Assembly (NCBI RefSeq): GCF_900106035.1
Contig: NZ_FNUC01000004.1
Coordinates: 558,001 to 622,000 of the forward strand
Direction: 5' to 3'
Length of the DNA stretch: 64,000 nucleotides
From: Jiangella alba
Lineage (GTDB): Bacteria > Actinomycetota > Actinomycetes > Jiangellales > Jiangellaceae
The notes beneath the pieces are model-generated. The model had not been told where the DNA came from. It saw only the letters and a program-made list of their open reading frames with translations, and ran no database searches. Shown here one piece after another: positions 26,939 to 57,878 of this stretch; the stretch's first letter is position 1; every line of letters begins with the position of its first letter. The translations under genes were made by a program, and so were the position numbers.

Positions 26939-27493
26939 TCAGGACGCCGACACGCGGTAGCGCCGCTGCCGGCAGGCGGGCGAGCAGTACCGGCGGGGCC
27001 GGCCGCGGGCCGGTTGGGTGAGCGGCGCCGCACAGACGACGCACTGGCCGGAGGCGGCAGCGGTTTCGTCACGCGTTTCGTCACGCCCGGCCGGGACGTG
27101 CCGGAGCAGTTCGTCGTCGAGGTGGGGGCAGTCGCGGACGATGTCGTCGTCGGGGCACTGGAGCAGGTGCAGCAGGTACGCCTGGGCCCGGCGCAGCCGC
27201 TCGATGCGCTCCTCGACCACGTCGGCATGGCGCTGCACCGCCTGCTGCCAGTCCTGGTTCCGGCTCGCCGACGTGACGATGGCGGCCTGGTCGAGCGGCA
27301 TCGCGCCGGTGACGCAGCACAGGTAGGCGAGGCCGATGCGGCGCAGGTCGGTCTCGGTGTAGGCGCGCCGGCCGTTGTGGCGCGACGGCGGGGGCAGCAC
27401 GCCCTGGGACTCCCACCACCGCAGGGTCGACGGCGCGAGGTCGAAGCGGGCGGCGGCCTGGCCGATGGAGACGCTCATGGGTCCAGTTGACAT
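26939..27493 (-). CDS. MerR-family regulator with C-terminal zinc-finger-like CxxC motif
   Basis: The 184-residue protein has a MerR winged HTH from about residue 6 (SVSIGQAAARFDLAPSTLRWWESQG) with the RRAYTETDLRRI wing. A coiled linker follows, then a C-terminal tail CVVCAAPLTQPARGRPRRYCS and ACRQRRYR whose four cysteines could bind zinc; this tail recurs in actinobacterial regulators. ATG 27493 has AAGGCGAG upstream; an ATG five codons later (27478) is possible. It is divergent from the ABC transporter pair, and two short TTGA/TCAA-type dyads lie at its start, suggesting autoregulation. Confidence 0.85.
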   Translation of the reverse strand: MSTGPMSVSIGQAAARFDLAPSTLRWWESQGVLPPPSRHNGRRAYTETDLRRIGLAYLCCVTGAMPLDQAAIVTSASRNQDWQQAVQRHADVVEERIERLRRAQAYLLHLLQCPDDDIVRDCPHLDDELLRHVPAGRDETRDETAAASGQCVVCAAPLTQPARGRPRRYCSPACRQRRYRVSAS

Positions 27494-27515
27494 CAACTCG
27501 CCTTGAAGACTCAAG
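27487..27515. promoter_or_regulatory. Short dyads at the MerR gene start (possible autoregulatory site)
   Basis: TTGACATCAA (27487–27496) and CTTGA-AGAC-TCAAG (27502–27515) are two inverted repeats sharing the TTGA/TCAA half site. They overlap and immediately precede the MerR start codon. MerR proteins bind dyads of this size, so autoregulation is a reasonable inference. Confidence 0.35.
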
Positions 27516-27523
27516 ATGCTTCG

Positions 27524-27542
27524 TGAGGTTAGGCATACCTTC
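27524..27542 (+). promoter_or_regulatory. Putative IdeR/DmdR-type iron box
   Basis: The 19-mer TGAGGTTAGGCATACCTTC matches 14 of 19 positions of the actinobacterial iron-box consensus TTAGGTTAGGCTAACCTAA, including the invariant AGGTTAGGC and ACCT cores. It ends 17 bases before ATG 27560 and abuts the AGGAGG ribosome-binding site (27545–27550), a good position for iron-dependent repression of the ABC pair. Confidence 0.6.
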
Positions 27543-27559
27543 CTAGGAGGATCAGTTCG

Positions 27560-29353
27560 ATGACCACCGACACCCGCGCTCCCGCGGGGCCGGCGCACGC
27601 CGCCGCCGAGCCCGTCGCCGGCCTCGCGAAGCCGGGAGCGCTGGCCCGGCTGCTCGCGCCGATCCGGGCCCACCTCGTGGCCTGCGCGATCCTCTCGGCC
27701 CTGAGCTCGGCGTCCGGGATCGTGCCGTACATCGCCGTCGCCGAGATCGCGCGGGTGCTGCTCGACGACCCGGACGGGGCGCGGCGGGCGATCTGGACGT
27801 GGGTCGGCATCGGCGCGGCGGGCGCCGGCCTGTGGCTGGTGCTGCTCGTGCAGTCGTCGCGGATCGGCCACTACGCCGACGCCGCGATCCTGCACGAGCT
27901 GCGCGGGCGGATCGTCCGCCACCTCGGCGCGCTGCCGCTGGGCTGGTTCCGCGCCGCGGGCTCGGGCCAGGTCAAGCGGTCGATGACCGGCGACCTCGAG
28001 GAGATGCACGAGGTCATCGCGCACGCGCTCGGGCAGCTGACCGGCGCAGTCACGGTGATGACGGTCGCGAGCGCCTACCTGTTCGTGGTCGACCCGCCGA
28101 TGGCGCTGATCGTGCTGGGCGTCCTCGCCCTGATGGCGGTCTTCTACCGCATCTCCATGCGCTCGATGACGACGCACATGAACCGGCTGATCGCCGCCGA
28201 CCAGCGCATCAGCGCGGCCGGCATCGAGTACGCCGACGGCATCCAGGTGGTCAAGACGTTCGGCACCGGCGGGCGCGTGCTGCGCCGCTTCGACGACGCG
28301 GTCGACGAACACACCCAGGCGTTCGCGGCGTGGGTGGCCGAGGTCCGGCGCAGCTCGGCGGCGTCGCGGCTGTTCGGCTCCGAGCTGGCCGTCCTCGCCG
28401 TCGTGACGGCGGCCGGGCTGGCCTTCGTCGACCGCGGGACGCTCGCCGTCGCGGACCTCGTCGCGTTCCTCGTCGTCGCGATCGGGCTGCCGAACTCGAT
28501 CCTCCCGGCCGTCACGGCCATGCAGGGCGTGCGCAAGGGGCGCATGGGCGCGGCCAACATCGAGCGGCTGCTGGCCCGGGCGCCGCTGCCGGAACCGGCG
28601 CACCCGCGCCGCCCGGACGGCCACGGTGTCGAGTTCGACCGCGTCCGCTTCTCCTACGACGGCGTGACCCACGCGGTCGACGGCGTCAGCGCGGTGTGCC
28701 GGCCGGGCACGGTCACCGCGATCGTCGGCCCGTCCGGCGCGGGCAAGACCACCCTGGCCGGCCTGCTGCCGCGGTTCTACGACGTGAGCGACGGCGCGGT
28801 GCGCATCGGCGGCGCCGACGTGCGCTCGATCCCGTCCACCGAGCTGCTGGCGTCGATGTCGCTGGTGTTCCAGGACGTCGCGCTGCTGCGCGACAGCGTC
28901 GCCGAGAACATCCGCATCGGCCGGCCCGGGGCGAGCGACGCCGAGGTCCGCGAGGCCGCCGTCGCCGCGCACGTCCACGACGTCATCGAGCGGCTGCCCA
29001 GCGGCTACGACACGCTGCTCGACGCGGGCGGCGGCAGCCTGTCCGGCGGCGAGCGGCAGCGTTTGACGATCGCGCGGGCGATCCTGTCCGGCGCGCCGAT
29101 CGTGGTGCTGGACGAGGCGACCGCCGCGCTCGATCCCGACAGCGAGGCCGCCGTCCAGGACGCACTGGCCACGCTCGCCGTCGGCAAGACCGTCCTCGTC
29201 ATCGCGCACCGGCTGCACACCATCGCCGACGCCGACCAGATCCTCGTCCTCGACGACGGGCGGCTGGCCGAGCGCGGCCGCCACGACGAACTGCTGGCCG
29301 GCGGCGGGCTGTACGCCCGCATGTGGGCCGCACAGGAAGGGGTGCTCGCATGA
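27560..29353 (+). CDS. ABC transporter, fused permease–ATPase, first half of heterodimer (siderophore-importer/IrtA-YbtP-like)
   Basis: The 597-residue protein has a six-helix ABC exporter-fold domain (about 35–340) and an ATPase domain with Walker A GPSGAGKTT, signature SLSGGERQR and Walker B VVLDEAT. It is followed with ATGA overlap by a second protein of the same design, so the pair should form a heterodimer. Pairs of this type behind an iron box in actinobacteria (IrtAB-like, YbtPQ-like) import ferric siderophores despite the exporter fold. No siderophore-reductase domain is present, and export of a small molecule is the alternative. Confidence 0.88.
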   Translation: MTTDTRAPAGPAHAAAEPVAGLAKPGALARLLAPIRAHLVACAILSALSSASGIVPYIAVAEIARVLLDDPDGARRAIWTWVGIGAAGAGLWLVLLVQSSRIGHYADAAILHELRGRIVRHLGALPLGWFRAAGSGQVKRSMTGDLEEMHEVIAHALGQLTGAVTVMTVASAYLFVVDPPMALIVLGVLALMAVFYRISMRSMTTHMNRLIAADQRISAAGIEYADGIQVVKTFGTGGRVLRRFDDAVDEHTQAFAAWVAEVRRSSAASRLFGSELAVLAVVTAAGLAFVDRGTLAVADLVAFLVVAIGLPNSILPAVTAMQGVRKGRMGAANIERLLARAPLPEPAHPRRPDGHGVEFDRVRFSYDGVTHAVDGVSAVCRPGTVTAIVGPSGAGKTTLAGLLPRFYDVSDGAVRIGGADVRSIPSTELLASMSLVFQDVALLRDSVAENIRIGRPGASDAEVREAAVAAHVHDVIERLPSGYDTLLDAGGGSLSGGERQRLTIARAILSGAPIVVLDEATAALDPDSEAAVQDALATLAVGKTVLVIAHRLHTIADADQILVLDDGRLAERGRHDELLAGGGLYARMWAAQEGVLA

Positions 29354-52935: not shown

Positions 52936-53008
52936 GGACAGGTAGCTCAGTTGGAAGAGCGTCCGCCTGAAAAGCGGAAGGTCGGCGGATCGAACCCGCC
53001 CCTGTCCA
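52936..53008 (+). tRNA. tRNA-Phe (GAA)
   Basis: A 73-base cloverleaf folds with acceptor GGACAGG/CCTGTCC, D-arm GCTC/GAGC, anticodon stem TCCGC/GCGGA with loop CTGAAAA (anticodon GAA) and T-stem GGCGG/CCGCC. The discriminator is A and CCA is not encoded (bases after are CCC). The T-loop reads ATCGAAC, so position 54 is A where T is nearly universal. It stands alone, 62 bases after the CopD–CtaG gene. Confidence 0.96.
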
Positions 53009-53296
53009 CCCACTGACCAGCGACGATGCCTCCCGCTGGTTGACCGTGAGAGACCGGATCCGACCGGGAATCGCCGTCCCAGGTCGCACGAGTGCCGCCG
53101 CGCTCCCCGTGGGCCTACTCGGCCCCGGTCTCCTCATAACCGCCGCTCCCAGGCCGGAGTGGAGCGTGTCAAGGGTCGAAGATCGCGAAGCGAAGCGGAG
53201 TGCCCTTGACTCGTGGAGTGGAGGCCGGACAATCGCGGCACGAGGGTGACGGCCCGACCGTCGTAGCTCTCGTGGGCCGGTCGACCAACGGACCCG
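53009..53296. other. Non-coding region after tRNA-Phe with repeats
   Basis: No gene is supported. GTCAAGGG (53168–53175) and CCCTTGAC (53203–53210) form a stem with a 27-base loop. GGAGTGGAG is repeated on both sides (53157–53165 and 53215–53223). No copy of the tRNA 3' end and no integrase remnant was seen. Confidence 0.5.
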
Positions 53297-53554
53297 TTAG
53301 TACGGCGTGGGGTCGATCGCAGAATAGGCCCGGTCCAACTCGGCCACGTACGTGTCCTGACCGAGGCCGGGGATGAGTGGATTCAGGGCCCGTTGAACCT
53401 CTGAGAGCACCTTCTGCTCGACCGGTCGGTCGAGTTCGATCACCTCAAGGTCGTGTGCAAAGTCCGAGAAGGCGATGACCTCATGCAGGACCACGGCTTC
53501 GGCCTCGGACATGCGCAAGGTGATGTGGCGGTCGGATCCGCGAACTGCTTCCAT
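53297..53554 (-). CDS. Small hypothetical protein (85 residues)
   Basis: The product starts MEAVRGSDRHITLRMSEAEAVVLHEVIAFSD and is predicted as a short beta strand followed by two helices, acidic overall. The phrase HITLRMSEAEAVVLHEVI resembles small actinobacterial proteins that fold like a ribbon–helix–helix or a binding antitoxin, but no family is recognised. ATG 53554 is used; no clear ribosome-binding site is present. It is divergent from the PPOX gene at 53690 with 135 bases between. Confidence 0.6.
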   Translation of the reverse strand: MEAVRGSDRHITLRMSEAEAVVLHEVIAFSDFAHDLEVIELDRPVEQKVLSEVQRALNPLIPGLGQDTYVAELDRAYSAIDPTPY

Positions 53555-53652
53555 GGGCAAATGTTCGCACCGTCAAGTCGCGCGGCTGGAGCGCCACCGA
53601 CGGCCGGCCGATCGGTGCGGGTCGCGGCGCGGGCTCGTCCACCAGTCGAGAT

Positions 53653-53683
53653 TTGACCTCAACCGCGGTTGAGGTCAGAGGAT
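53653..53683 (+). promoter_or_regulatory. MerR/SoxR-like promoter with 19-bp spacer before a leaderless gene
   Basis: A perfect 24-base palindrome (53654–53677) has the core CCTCAACCGCGGTTGAGG, with the same outer half sites (CCTCAA/TTGAGG) as SoxR boxes. TTGACC (53653–53658) and GAGGAT (53678–53683) flank a 19-base spacer, the over-long spacing typical of MerR-activated promoters. The expected transcript start coincides with GTG 53690. Confidence 0.65.
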
Positions 53684-53689
53684 GGTCGC

Positions 53690-54121
53690 GTGACTGCCGC
53701 ATTCGACATCGACTCTTTCCTCGCGAGGCCCTTGGCCGCCAGAGTGGCGACCAACGGGCCGACGGTGCGGCCCGCGTGGTACCTGTGGGAGGACGGAGCG
53801 TTCTGGATCCTGTCCGGCCCATGGGCGAGGCTGCTCGACCACGTGCGCTCCGATCCGGCCCTGGCCGTGGTCGTCGACGAGTGCGACGTGGTCACTGGCG
53901 TCGTCCGTCAGGTCATCGCACGCGGCGTGGCGGAGGTCCTCCCCTTCGATGTGCCGCGTGGACGACGCAAACTGACTCGTTATCTCGGCCCTGACGAATC
54001 GGCCTGGGACGCGCGGTTCCGGCATTACCTGCACGACGATCCCACGACGAACGGCACGGTCTGGCTACGCCTGGAACCAGCCCGGCTCATCGCGTCGGAC
54101 CTCAGTTACCGAACGGCCTGA
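53690..54121 (+). CDS. PPOX-class flavin- or F420-dependent oxidoreductase
   Basis: The 143-residue split-barrel protein has RPLAARVATNGPTVRPAWYLWEDGAFWILSG near its start and ends with a short helix–strand unit, the architecture of pyridoxamine-phosphate-oxidase-like proteins that bind FMN or F420 in actinobacteria. Substrate unknown. AGAGGA is eight bases before GTG 53690, but the promoter geometry suggests a leaderless transcript as well. A strong stem-loop (54172–54211) lies 50 bases downstream. Confidence 0.82.
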   Translation: MTAAFDIDSFLARPLAARVATNGPTVRPAWYLWEDGAFWILSGPWARLLDHVRSDPALAVVVDECDVVTGVVRQVIARGVAEVLPFDVPRGRRKLTRYLGPDESAWDARFRHYLHDDPTTNGTVWLRLEPARLIASDLSYRTA

Positions 54122-54171
54122 ACGCGCCGGCGCCGCGAGCGGACCTGATCATGGCGCCGGACGAGGGATGA

Positions 54172-54211
54172 CCCCGCGCCCGCCGGCCGGGAGGGACCGA
54201 CGGGCGCGGGG
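54172..54211. terminator. Stem-loop terminator after the PPOX gene
   Basis: CCCCGCGCCCG (54172–54182) and CGGGCGCGGGG (54201–54211) pair perfectly over 11 bases with an 18-base loop. It lies between the PPOX and aldo/keto reductase genes and separates their transcripts. Confidence 0.6.
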
Positions 54212-54327
54212 CCGGCTCAGGGTCGCTGAGCGCACGTCGCGCGTGACCATACCCGCGGTCCAGCGGCACCGAAACCGGCTCGGCGGAAGAACGCCGCCCA
54301 GGTCGACGCGGGCGGGGGCACCAGCGC

Positions 54328-54358
54328 TTGACTTCGAGCGCGCTCGAAACCGTAGCGT
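54328..54358 (+). promoter_or_regulatory. MerR-type promoter with 19-bp spacer before the aldo/keto reductase
   Basis: TTGACT (54328–54333) and TAGCGT (54353–54358) are separated by exactly 19 bases that contain the perfect palindrome TTCGAGCGCGCTCGAA (54333–54348). ATG 54365 lies seven bases after the -10 box without a Shine–Dalgarno site, so the message is probably leaderless. Confidence 0.65.
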
Positions 54359-54364
54359 CGCGGG

Positions 54365-55417
54365 ATGCGCTATCGACCGCTCGGCGGCACCGGCATCCAC
54401 GTCAGCCCCTACTGCCTGGGCGCCATGATGTTCGGCGCGGCCGGCAACCCCGACCACGACGACAGTGCCCGCATCATCCACGCCGCGCTCGACCGTGGGA
54501 TCAACTTCGTCGACACGGCGGACATGTACTCGGCCGGCGAGTCGGAGGAGATCGTCGGGAAGGCGCTGCAGGGCCGCCGCGACGACGTGGTGCTGGCGAC
54601 GAAGGTGCACTTCCCGCTGACTGAGGGGCCGAACCACAGCGGCAACTCGCGCCGCTGGATCATCACCGCCGTCGAGGACAGCCTGCGCCGGCTGCAGACC
54701 GACTGGATCGACCTCTACCAGGTGCACCGGCCCGACCCCACGACCGACGTCGAGGAGACGGTGTCGGCGCTGAGCGACCTCGTGCGCCAGGGCAAGGTCC
54801 GCGCGTTCGGCCACTCCACGTTCCCGGCCGAGGAGATCGTCGAGGCGCAGCACGTGTCCGAACGGCGCGGACTGCTGCGCTTCCGCACCGAGCAGCCGCC
54901 GTACTCGCTGCTGGCCCGCGGCATCGAGACGTCGGTGCTGCCGACCTGCCGGCGCTACGGCCTGGGCGTCCTCACGTGGAGCCCGCTCGCCTCCGGCTTC
55001 CTGTCCGGCCACCACCGCAAGGGCCGCCCGATCGACCTGACGACGGGACGGGCGAGGCTGGCGCCCGGGCGGTTCGACCCGGCGCTGCCGGTGAACGCGG
55101 CCAAGCTCGAGCTGGTCGAGCGGCTGATCGAGGTGGCCGACGACGCGGGGTGCACGCTGCCGCGGCTGGCCGTCGCGTTCACGCTGGCGCACCCGGCGGT
55201 CACGTCGACGATCATCGGGCCGCGCACGATGGAGCAGCTGGAGTCGTTGCTCGACGGCGCCGAGGTCGCCCTGGACGACGCGACGCTGGACCGCATCGAC
55301 GCGATCGTGCCGCCCGGAAGCAACGCCTATCGCCCCGACGGCGCGTGGACGCCGGTCTCGCTCTCCGATCCGGCGCTTCGGCGCCGTCCATTGAGTGAGC
55401 GCAGCGCCGCCGGATAA
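54365..55417 (+). CDS. Aldo/keto reductase
   Basis: The 350-residue TIM-barrel oxidoreductase has the catalytic tetrad Asp (FVDTAD, near 50), Tyr (MYSAGESE, near 55), Lys (VLATKVHFPL, near 80) and His (LYQVHRPDP, near 120). The NADPH pocket is GPRTMEQLESLL near 282. It reduces aldehydes or ketones. Control by a MerR-type activator is suggested by its promoter and would fit a role against reactive carbonyls or drugs, but no such regulator is encoded nearby. Confidence 0.92.
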   Translation: MRYRPLGGTGIHVSPYCLGAMMFGAAGNPDHDDSARIIHAALDRGINFVDTADMYSAGESEEIVGKALQGRRDDVVLATKVHFPLTEGPNHSGNSRRWIITAVEDSLRRLQTDWIDLYQVHRPDPTTDVEETVSALSDLVRQGKVRAFGHSTFPAEEIVEAQHVSERRGLLRFRTEQPPYSLLARGIETSVLPTCRRYGLGVLTWSPLASGFLSGHHRKGRPIDLTTGRARLAPGRFDPALPVNAAKLELVERLIEVADDAGCTLPRLAVAFTLAHPAVTSTIIGPRTMEQLESLLDGAEVALDDATLDRIDAIVPPGSNAYRPDGAWTPVSLSDPALRRRPLSERSAAG

Positions 55418-55550
55418 AGCTGTGTCAGGTCGACGGCATCAGCGCGCCGTCCGCGTCACATTCCGGTGGACTAAGAGGTCGCACATTCTGGCCGAATGGC
55501 CGATAAGAAAGATGATGTGCGAGAAAAGAAAGCGACCGTTGAAAGTAGCG

Positions 55551-55583
55551 GACACGGGCGGCCGGTTGCCCACCGCCCGTGTC
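55551..55583. terminator. Stem-loop, probable terminator of AKR
   Basis: An 11-base perfect stem with an 11-base loop lies 134 bases downstream of the aldo/keto reductase stop. No T-tract follows. Confidence 0.5.
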
Positions 55584-55667
55584 GACGCCTGGCGGCTGGT
55601 GCGATGCGACAGCGCAGCCATACCCCACCCGGGGCTGACTCCGTCGCACTCGCGACGCCGACCGATC

Positions 55668-55697
55668 TCGTGTGATCCTGCACCACAGGTCACACGA
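55668..55697. terminator. Stem-loop, probable terminator of bldC
   Basis: Twelve paired bases with a single bulged T and a five-base loop (CACCA) lie 130 bases downstream of the bldC stop on the minus strand. A regulator site is an alternative because the outer arms contain TGTGA/TCACA. Confidence 0.45.
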
Positions 55698-55826
55698 CTT
55701 CTAGTTACGCGTTCCCGCGCAGCCCCCGCCGCAGGCCTGGCCCGCCGCCTACGGGCCCAGCCTTGACTTCCCCGTTACCGCCCCCGCTCGGCATGGTCGA
55801 GCGTATGGTGGGACGATTCTCACCCC

Positions 55827-56048
55827 TTAGAGCTCGCCGACCTCGACGCGCTCCACTGCGGACCCTTGCCCGTTGAGCAGCGCACGCACCTCGGACTCGC
55901 GGTACCGCCGGTGGCCACCGAGCGTCCGGATCGACGTGAGCTTGCCGGCCTTGGCCCACCGGGTCACCGTCTTCGGATCCACCCGGAACATGGCCGCCAC
56001 CTCGGCAGGAGTGAGGAGGGGCTCGGCGTCTTGTGTCCTGGTCGCCAT
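55827..56048 (-). CDS. bldC: BldC, MerR-like developmental regulator
   Basis: The 73-residue protein contains LLTPAEVAAMFRVDPKTVTRWAKAGKLTSI and LGGHRRYRESEVRALL, virtually the BldC sequence known from Streptomyces, where this single-domain DNA-binding protein controls entry into development. It binds direct repeats head to tail. AGGAGGTGACG precedes ATG 56048. Its position near vdh, DUF3073, purM and purF matches the conserved actinobacterial order, here with a DHA2 exporter inserted upstream. Confidence 0.96.
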   Translation of the reverse strand: MATRTQDAEPLLTPAEVAAMFRVDPKTVTRWAKAGKLTSIRTLGGHRRYRESEVRALLNGQGSAVERVEVGEL

Positions 56049-56070
56049 CGTCACCTCCTTAGATCCCATA

Positions 56071-56086
56071 GCGGGAGGTTTCCCGC
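56071..56086 (-). promoter_or_regulatory. 5'-UTR hairpin of bldC
   Basis: GCGGGA (56071–56076) and TCCCGC (56081–56086) form a perfect six-base stem with a four-base loop, 23 bases upstream of the bldC start and just before its ribosome-binding site. Confidence 0.4.
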
Positions 56087-56190
56087 CACACCGGATATTC
56101 CACCTTGTCGACCCCCTCGAACGACACCGCCCGTACGGCTCGACCCAAGCCAGCCATTCGGATGATGTCCACCCAGGGTGTCTCTAGCCT

Positions 56191-56208
56191 ACGTAAGGTT
56201 CACGTAAG
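56191..56208. promoter_or_regulatory. Tandem ACGTAAG repeats upstream of bldC
   Basis: ACGTAAG occurs at 56191–56197 and 56202–56208, an 11-base period, about 145 bases upstream of bldC. BldC proteins bind direct repeats, so autoregulation is possible; this is inference. Confidence 0.4.
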
Positions 56209-56240
56209 CCGCGAACCGGCCCAACTCGTGCGGGACCGGC

Positions 56241-57878
56241 CTACCCGGCATCGGAGATCGTCCGCGTGCCGGCACCACCCACCTCGGCTTCTCGTCGCGT
56301 TCGTCCACCCTTGACTGCGAGACACAGCAGTGCCCCACATGCCACGGCGGCGACCGGAACGATCAGCGTCGGCTTCATTGCATCAACATAGCCCTGTATG
56401 AACACATCGTGGGCCATTTCGGCGATCTTTCCCGCGACTTCTTGAGAAACTCCCGGTGGAAGTGCCATGTCAATTCCACCTTCCGCGCCGCTGACCTGCA
56501 GACCTCCCTCAGCGGCCCCCGCGAAACCGTCGATGAACGGTCGTTGCGCGTCCGGCGGCAAAGCCGTTGCGGCCGCAACGGCCTCGGAATGCAGACGGCT
56601 CGCGAGCAGCCCTTGCAGCACCGCCCCGACGACCGCACTACCCACCACCTGGCCCAGTTGACGGTTCGTGTTCAGCACCCCGGACGCCGCGCCGGCCACC
56701 CGTCCGGGCACGTCGCGCATCGCCACGGTGTTCATGGGGGCGAAGATGCACCCCAGCCCCAACCCCGCGACCAGCAGCGACGGCAGGAAGTGCCACCACT
56801 GCGCGGTGTCGGTGGCCACCACGGCGAAGGACAGCACGCCGGCGCCATAGAGCAAGAGGCCCGCGATCAGGATGAACTTGCCGCCGACGCGGTCGGTGAA
56901 GCGGCCGGCGAACGGCGCCACGAACATCGAGACGACGGACATCGGCGCGAGCGTCAGCCCCGCCTCCAGCGCGGTGTGCCCGAGCACCGTCTGCAGGTAG
57001 ATGGTGATCGGCAGGAAAGTCCCCACCATCCCGATGGCGACCAGCCCCGCCACGCCGTTCATCACCGAGTAGTTGCGGTCGTGGAACAGGCCGAACGGGA
57101 TCAGCGGCTCGCGGTCCTGACGCAGCGCCTGCAGCACGAGGAACACGGCCAGCAGGACGGAGCCGGCCACCAGCAGCGCCGGGATCGACACGAACTCCCA
57201 CACCTGCCCCCACCCGAACCGCTCGCCCTCGACCAGCCCGAAGGTCAGCAGGACGAGCGCCGCGCTGGCCAGCACGACGCCGGGAAGGTCGAGCCGGTGC
57301 CGCTCGCGCCGGGCCGACTCCGGGATGATCGACCACGCCATGGCCAGCACGACGACGCCCACCGGCACGTTGACGAAGAAGATCCAGCGCCAGTCGAACA
57401 CCGTCACCAGCAGCCCGCCCAGCGTCGGCCCGGCGACGGTGGCGACACCGGCCACCGCGCCCCAGATGCCGAACGCCGTCCCGCGTTTCTCCGGCGGGAA
57501 CGTCGTGATGAGCAGGGCGGACGTCTGTGGCATCAGGATCGCGGCGCCGATGCCCTGCACGACGCGGCAGGCGATCAGCATGGCCGGGCCCTGCGACAGC
57601 CCGCAGGCCAGCGACGCCAGCGTGAACACCGCGACGCCGATGATGAACATGGTGCGCTGGCCGCGCAGGTCGCCGAGGCGACCCGCCGTGATGACCAGCA
57701 CCGCCAGCATGATCACGTAGGCGTTGATCACCCACAGGATCTCGTCGAGCGACGCGCCGAGCTCGGTCATCATGCTCGGGATGGCGATGTTGACGATCGT
57801 CACGTCGAGCAGCGTCATGAAGAAGCCGAGACACAACGTGAGCAGGATCGCCCAGGGGTTCCCGTGCCATCGCCTCAC
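56241..57878 (-). CDS. DHA2-family (14-TM) drug/H+ antiporter
   Basis: The 545-residue protein has about 14 membrane segments. It shows LLDVTIVNIAIPSM (motif D1 of DHA2), GRLGDLRGQR (loop 2–3) and GPTLGGLLV (motif C of exporters). It pumps drugs or other hydrophobic compounds outward. The C-terminal domain contains an extra loop (450–505) before the last helices. GTG 57878 has AGGAGG seven bases upstream. It is divergent from vdh and ends 192 bases before the bldC start on the same strand. Confidence 0.92.
   Translation of the reverse strand: MRRWHGNPWAILLTLCLGFFMTLLDVTIVNIAIPSMMTELGASLDEILWVINAYVIMLAVLVITAGRLGDLRGQRTMFIIGVAVFTLASLACGLSQGPAMLIACRVVQGIGAAILMPQTSALLITTFPPEKRGTAFGIWGAVAGVATVAGPTLGGLLVTVFDWRWIFFVNVPVGVVVLAMAWSIIPESARRERHRLDLPGVVLASAALVLLTFGLVEGERFGWGQVWEFVSIPALLVAGSVLLAVFLVLQALRQDREPLIPFGLFHDRNYSVMNGVAGLVAIGMVGTFLPITIYLQTVLGHTALEAGLTLAPMSVVSMFVAPFAGRFTDRVGGKFILIAGLLLYGAGVLSFAVVATDTAQWWHFLPSLLVAGLGLGCIFAPMNTVAMRDVPGRVAGAASGVLNTNRQLGQVVGSAVVGAVLQGLLASRLHSEAVAAATALPPDAQRPFIDGFAGAAEGGLQVSGAEGGIDMALPPGVSQEVAGKIAEMAHDVFIQGYVDAMKPTLIVPVAAVACGALLCLAVKGGRTRREAEVGGAGTRTISDAG

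Follow-up and report, generated by a model that had tools for sequence, protein, structure and literature searches.

A predicted SoxR-activated and probably leaderless promoter ahead of a PPOX-class gene in Jiangella alba

In the soxS promoter of Escherichia coli, a CCTCAA-N6-TTGAGG box centred on GTTAAC lies in a 19-base spacer between the -35 and -10 elements, a spacing about two bases above the usual one. SoxR of Streptomyces coelicolor is activated by redox-active compounds, according to the available text of PMC5288332, and its regulon, as set out in the available part of PMC4146615, consists of six genes with one promoter architecture that encode a transporter, oxidoreductases, a monooxygenase and an epimerase. 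The same part of that paper reports a box at ~13% of the soxR genes of other Streptomyces. The word 'leaderless' has 0 occurrences in its main text; a short distance may show in its Figure 3C, where distances to the start codon are given. Leaderless messages as such are common in S. coelicolor, where the available text of PMC4895711 assigns them to ~21% of primary transcript starts. A MerR-type regulator has been joined with a leaderless message in Anabaena, where the repressor CvkR acts on a promoter with a long spacer (21 nt) ahead of leaderless cas12k (available part of PMC9938897).

Here we describe a locus of Jiangella alba at which a promoter of the soxS type precedes a gene for a PPOX-class protein; coordinates refer to the window, that is, the whole stretch of 64,000 nucleotides that was analysed, and positions within a promoter take the first T of the -35 element as 1, so that position 38 lies 37 bases after that T. 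On the plus strand, the -35 element TTGACC (53653-53658) overlaps the operator, a perfect 24-base palindrome, TGACCTCAACCGCGGTTGAGGTCA (53654-53677; 12/12 pairs), which holds the SoxR box CCTCAA-N6-TTGAGG with its core at 53657-53674. The 19-base spacer, TCAACCGCGGTTGAGGTCA, leads to the -10 element GAGGAT (53678-53683), and six bases further on a GTG at position 38, the predicted transcript start, opens the PPOX reading frame (53690-54121; 143 amino acids). A preliminary description had given this layout, with its 24-base palindrome, CCTCAA/TTGAGG half-sites and TTGACC-19-GAGGAT spacing, and all of it can be read directly in the sequence. The hallmarks of a SoxR-regulated promoter are thus present, namely the CCTCAA-N6-TTGAGG operator and its place between -35 and -10 elements that are 19 bases apart. 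Box, register and spacer are those of the E. coli soxS promoter, but the target is an enzyme rather than a second regulator and the start codon falls at the predicted transcript start. The centre of the palindrome, CCGCGG, is unlike the GTTAAC of soxS; it recurs in one other genome (G005), and centres are variable across the 88 boxes considered below. As to the start codon, an ORF tool sets the beginning of the PPOX frame at a TTG within the box (53669), and an ATG at 53682 opens a frame that hits TGA after three codons, while the PPOX frame runs from GTG 53690; the consensus of 18 aligned sequences starts at F5 of the GTG-started protein. Taken together with the evidence that follows, we regard it as highly probable that a SoxR-activated, leaderless promoter serves the PPOX gene.

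The locus is one member of a set. With up to three mismatches, the pattern TTGACCTCAA-N6-TTGAGGT matches the 7.68 Mb genome at 13 distinct sites, six of them perfect, and the reversed control at 0. Perfect CCTCAA-N6-TTGAGG likewise occurs six times genome-wide, in 6/6 cases with TTGA before it, as part of the -35 element, and T after it. Half-sites alone at up to two mismatches were in no excess genome-wide (31 places vs 40 in the reversed control), so the signal resides in strong sites and the added -35 element, and weak sites are left uncounted. At 10 of the 13 sites an open reading frame starts at position 38-40 (38 in eight, 39 in one and 40 in one). Leaving aside the sites of the PPOX gene, L059 and L058, the 10 others precede genes for four MFS transporters, two zinc-type dehydrogenases (quinone-oxidoreductase-like by eye), an ABC ATPase, a luciferase-like monooxygenase, a DUF4440/SnoaL protein and an NAD-binding/NmrA protein. 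One of the dehydrogenase genes stands behind a longer leader (L052), and at L059 (window 27487) the leader includes a Shine-Dalgarno sequence. The remaining site, L058 (G000:C4:427163; three mismatches), is probably a chance match, as no open reading frame of at least 90 amino acids starts within 90 bases of it. At L059, within 27161-27560, a MerR-like gene on the minus strand, a weak match to the SoxR model below its cut-off, adjoins an ABC transporter gene, and the site between the two is TTGACATCAACTCGCCTTGAAGA, a relative of the box with three mismatches, two of them in the half-sites; a Shine-Dalgarno sequence precedes the transporter gene.

That the message would be leaderless had also been proposed in the preliminary description. 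This finds support for the class in its start geometry, whereas the PPOX gene alone remains ambiguous, because AGAGGA (53677-53682), 7 bases before the GTG, could act as a Shine-Dalgarno sequence. A SoxR-type promoter whose transcript starts further upstream, so that the message has a leader containing the box and AGAGGA as ribosome-binding site, is the first alternative to be weighed. In its favour, GAGGAT is a poor -10 element, in which the first consensus T is missing and whose bases are shared with a passable Shine-Dalgarno sequence, and leaders are clear at L052 and L059 in the same genome and at L113 (AGGAGG) elsewhere. The sole sigma-70 consensus site in 53000-56300, scanned with spacers of 16-18, lies ~420 bases upstream, which tells against it.

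The class-wide geometry was drawn from 88 boxes, 48 from the organism's own family and 40 from other families, many of them orthologous within the genus and hence not independent. The search pattern ends in B (not A) at position 49, leaving out boxes with A there; the PPOX-gene box and one other of the six perfect boxes of this genome are outside the set. T stands at position 31 of the -10 element in 88/88 boxes and A at position 27 in 72/88. A -10 element that ends at position 31 places the transcript start near 38, and it is at 38 or 39 that an ATG or GTG is found in 63/88 boxes (31 and 32, respectively); any other position past the -10 element has one in at most five of the 88. The share is 41/48 in the own family and, more in keeping with a leader, only 22/40 in the others. 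Among 46 of the 88 loci examined in this respect, an open reading frame of at least 110 amino acids opens at 38 or 39 in 31, and Shine-Dalgarno cores at the proper distance are in no excess there (3/31 vs a shuffled mean of 4.2). The PPOX gene has the geometry of the class despite its AGAGGA. On balance, an upstream start with a leadered message is unlikely. Within loci L063-L108, boxes with TA at 26-27, a stronger -10 element, open a reading frame at 38/39 in 4/13 cases, as against 27/33 for the others (Fisher p 0.0017); the promoters may thus fall into a leadered and a leaderless class.

If a leaderless start is accepted, the PPOX promoter and CvkR/cas12k have in common a MerR-type regulator, a long spacer and a leaderless message (here predicted); as far as the available part of PMC9938897 goes, CvkR is nonetheless a repressor, has an operator of a different kind and comes from a cyanobacterium, where it forms a single system with no start rule for a class. 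A literature search joining 'leaderless' with SoxR or MerR, covering few subscription journals, found no stated start rule for SoxR promoters. More tentatively, and with slightly less than even confidence, we suggest that in the SoxR promoters of these actinobacteria, and perhaps in those of MerR-type activators generally, transcript start and start codon are rigidly coupled at 38/39 from the -35 element. Operator, promoter and translation start would then form a rigid cassette that moves as one block ahead of any gene, and redox genes such as the PPOX gene would be recruited singly.

Which protein reads the operator? Three genes elsewhere in the genome score over the SoxR cut-off (TIGR01950), and all three products carry the CX2CXCX5C motif expected of the regulator of such a promoter. 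The alignment of the first with E. coli SoxR (2zhg) has an E of 8.8e-54; the third ends shortly past its last cysteine, with a TGA inside the profile match. Each soxR gene has a box in its divergent promoter, with one mismatch for the first two and three for the third. Across other genomes, at least nine of the listed boxes, in eight genomes, lie within 60 bases of a SoxR match, a lower bound from a comparison of 21 typed boxes with 13 typed SoxR matches. A search for the regulator by motif co-occurrence, as the preliminary description had advised, led to the same protein: among 148 genomes of the class, 45 of which have a perfect box by the strict pattern, SoxR over the cut-off was found in 44/45 genomes with the box and 46/103 without a perfect one. 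Large genomes are richer in both box and SoxR, so this association is confounded; outside the own family and in genomes of at least 3 Mb it is 30/31 vs 45/77 (p 4.6e-5), and at 4 Mb or more it becomes weaker (41/42 vs 40/53, p 0.0027). The earlier expectation of activation by a MerR-family protein is supported at the level of sequence, with SoxR as the candidate, by the half-sites, the -35 register, the boxes in soxR promoters, the SoxR-adjacent boxes and the co-occurrence, and the three SoxR genes are the likely regulators of the PPOX promoter.

A different MerR-family regulator on the palindrome is the second alternative, since overlap with the -35 element and 19-base spacing are common to MerR-type operators. 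Moreover, the promoter of the next gene (54328) is of a different MerR type, the weak box relative noted above adjoins the MerR-like gene at 27161, and of the 19 genomic matches to the SoxR model, 16 are under its cut-off. However, two soxR promoters have boxes with one mismatch and the third has one with three, and the co-occurring protein is SoxR over the cut-off, which makes another member of the family a quite improbable regulator here. A small MerR-like gene close to the PPOX gene, at 55827-56069, was rejected as a candidate regulator: it belongs to the BldC family (NF033787).

A chance palindrome without function is next to negligible as an explanation: although the 64 kb window, with 53654-53677 as its sole perfect 24-base palindrome, has five places that reach at least 11/12 pairs, and one such palindrome is in itself unsurprising at 73% G+C, its half-sites, -35 element, register and start position match those of other sites in the genome, the reversed control gives 0, and two other genera have boxes ahead of this gene as well. 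The box pattern with up to three mismatches has one match in the window and 0 in 100 shuffles of it.

The reading that we prefer, a SoxR-activated and leaderless promoter, would work as follows, with the mechanism carried over from the SoxR family. The 31 bases at 53653-53683 would constitute a SoxR-type activator promoter, and a SoxR dimer, most likely of one of the three [2Fe-2S] paralogs, would sit on the palindrome between the -35 and -10 elements. Oxidation of the cluster by a redox-active compound would cause SoxR to distort the DNA and so make both elements usable for RNA polymerase. Transcription would then start at GTG 53690, or no more than one or two bases away, and yield a leaderless message for the split-barrel protein.

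Judged by the genes behind the other sites, the PPOX gene is most likely a member of a regulon in which efflux pumps and redox enzymes counter redox-active compounds. Boxes ahead of pumps and redox enzymes are a likeness to the S. coelicolor regulon as described in the available text of PMC4146615. In J. alba, by comparison, there are about a dozen sites, four MFS pumps and a PPOX-class target that is outside the list given in that text. There are also three SoxR paralogs with a box in the promoter region of each, whereas soxR of S. coelicolor, according to the same text, is not autoregulated. Our results give an otherwise unassigned PPOX flavin-type gene a likely regulator and a likely signal, redox-active compounds, and outline a SoxR regulon in which about a dozen sites are matched by three paralogous SoxR genes. 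A SoxR-type promoter is in itself of a known sort; the more interesting part is the fixed start geometry, which we did not find in print. Most SoxR promoters of this group have their start codon 37 or 38 bases past the first T of the -35 element. This rule, if true, would aid the placement of start codons, and it would explain how a gene that has no ribosome-binding site can enter the regulon.

The protein itself is narrowly above the Pfam gathering scores of PF01243 (PNPOx_N; 30.6 vs 28.1) and PF12900 (Pyridox_ox_2; 27.7 vs 27), and scores far below the cut-off of TIGR03667, the PPOX class F420-dependent oxidoreductases (30.9 vs 125.3 bits). Its predicted structure is a split barrel (pLDDT 91.1), for which the best Foldseek match is Rv2991 (1rfe; E 3.9e-8, TM 0.75). 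The FMN/F420-binding split-barrel proteins Rv2991, MSMEG_3380 (3f7e) and Rv1155 (4qvb) share this predicted fold, but at no more than 22% identity. It is probably a small split-barrel protein of a putative flavin or F420 type; pyridoxamine 5'-phosphate oxidase is for this protein a family name only.

Relatives of the PPOX gene are under the box in some cases and not in others. Among 17 named relatives, the gene's own promoter contains a box in two: in Amycolatopsis xylanica (L034) the same gene follows TTGACC-19-GATAGT with GTG at 38, and in an Actinophytocola MAG (L036) a box is followed by ATG at 40, with the ORF tool's start upstream of the box. In five Amycolatopsis the PPOX gene comes directly behind a zinc-type dehydrogenase gene that has a box of one to three mismatches. 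In a Streptomyces (L033; 1349-1862), a box with two mismatches and an ATG at 38 stands ahead of the preceding co-oriented gene, which is SnoaL-like by eye and ends ~125 bases before the PPOX gene. For nine of the 17, a box was not found in the 1.6 kb upstream (115 bases in the case of L028), although L038 among them has a doubtful TTGACC stretch. Nor was a box found in the own promoters of eight further distinct relatives, seven of which were scanned and one (L119) inspected by eye; L112, the same place as L027, was left out of this count. At L113 a box lies ~870 bases upstream, ahead of another gene with AGGAGG before its GTG. Within the genus, matches to the PPOX gene occur in 2 of 12 genomes, that of J. 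alba included; the other copy (L025) has 88 residues, its frame kept and an internal stretch of ~55 residues missing, and no box was seen there by eye. The distribution is patchy, and the PPOX gene seems to have been placed under the control of SoxR on more than one occasion.

Next to the PPOX gene stands a second promoter of the MerR type (54328-54365), in which TTGACT, a 19-base spacer containing TTCGAGCGCGCTCGAA, and TAGCGT are followed by the ATG of an aldo/keto reductase gene (54365) at position 38. Its operator, with two mismatches allowed, recurs in the genome ahead of a MerR gene (L110; GTG at 39) and another aldo/keto reductase gene (L111; ATG at 38), with 0 in the control, and these three starts point in the same direction as the rigid cassette suggested above.
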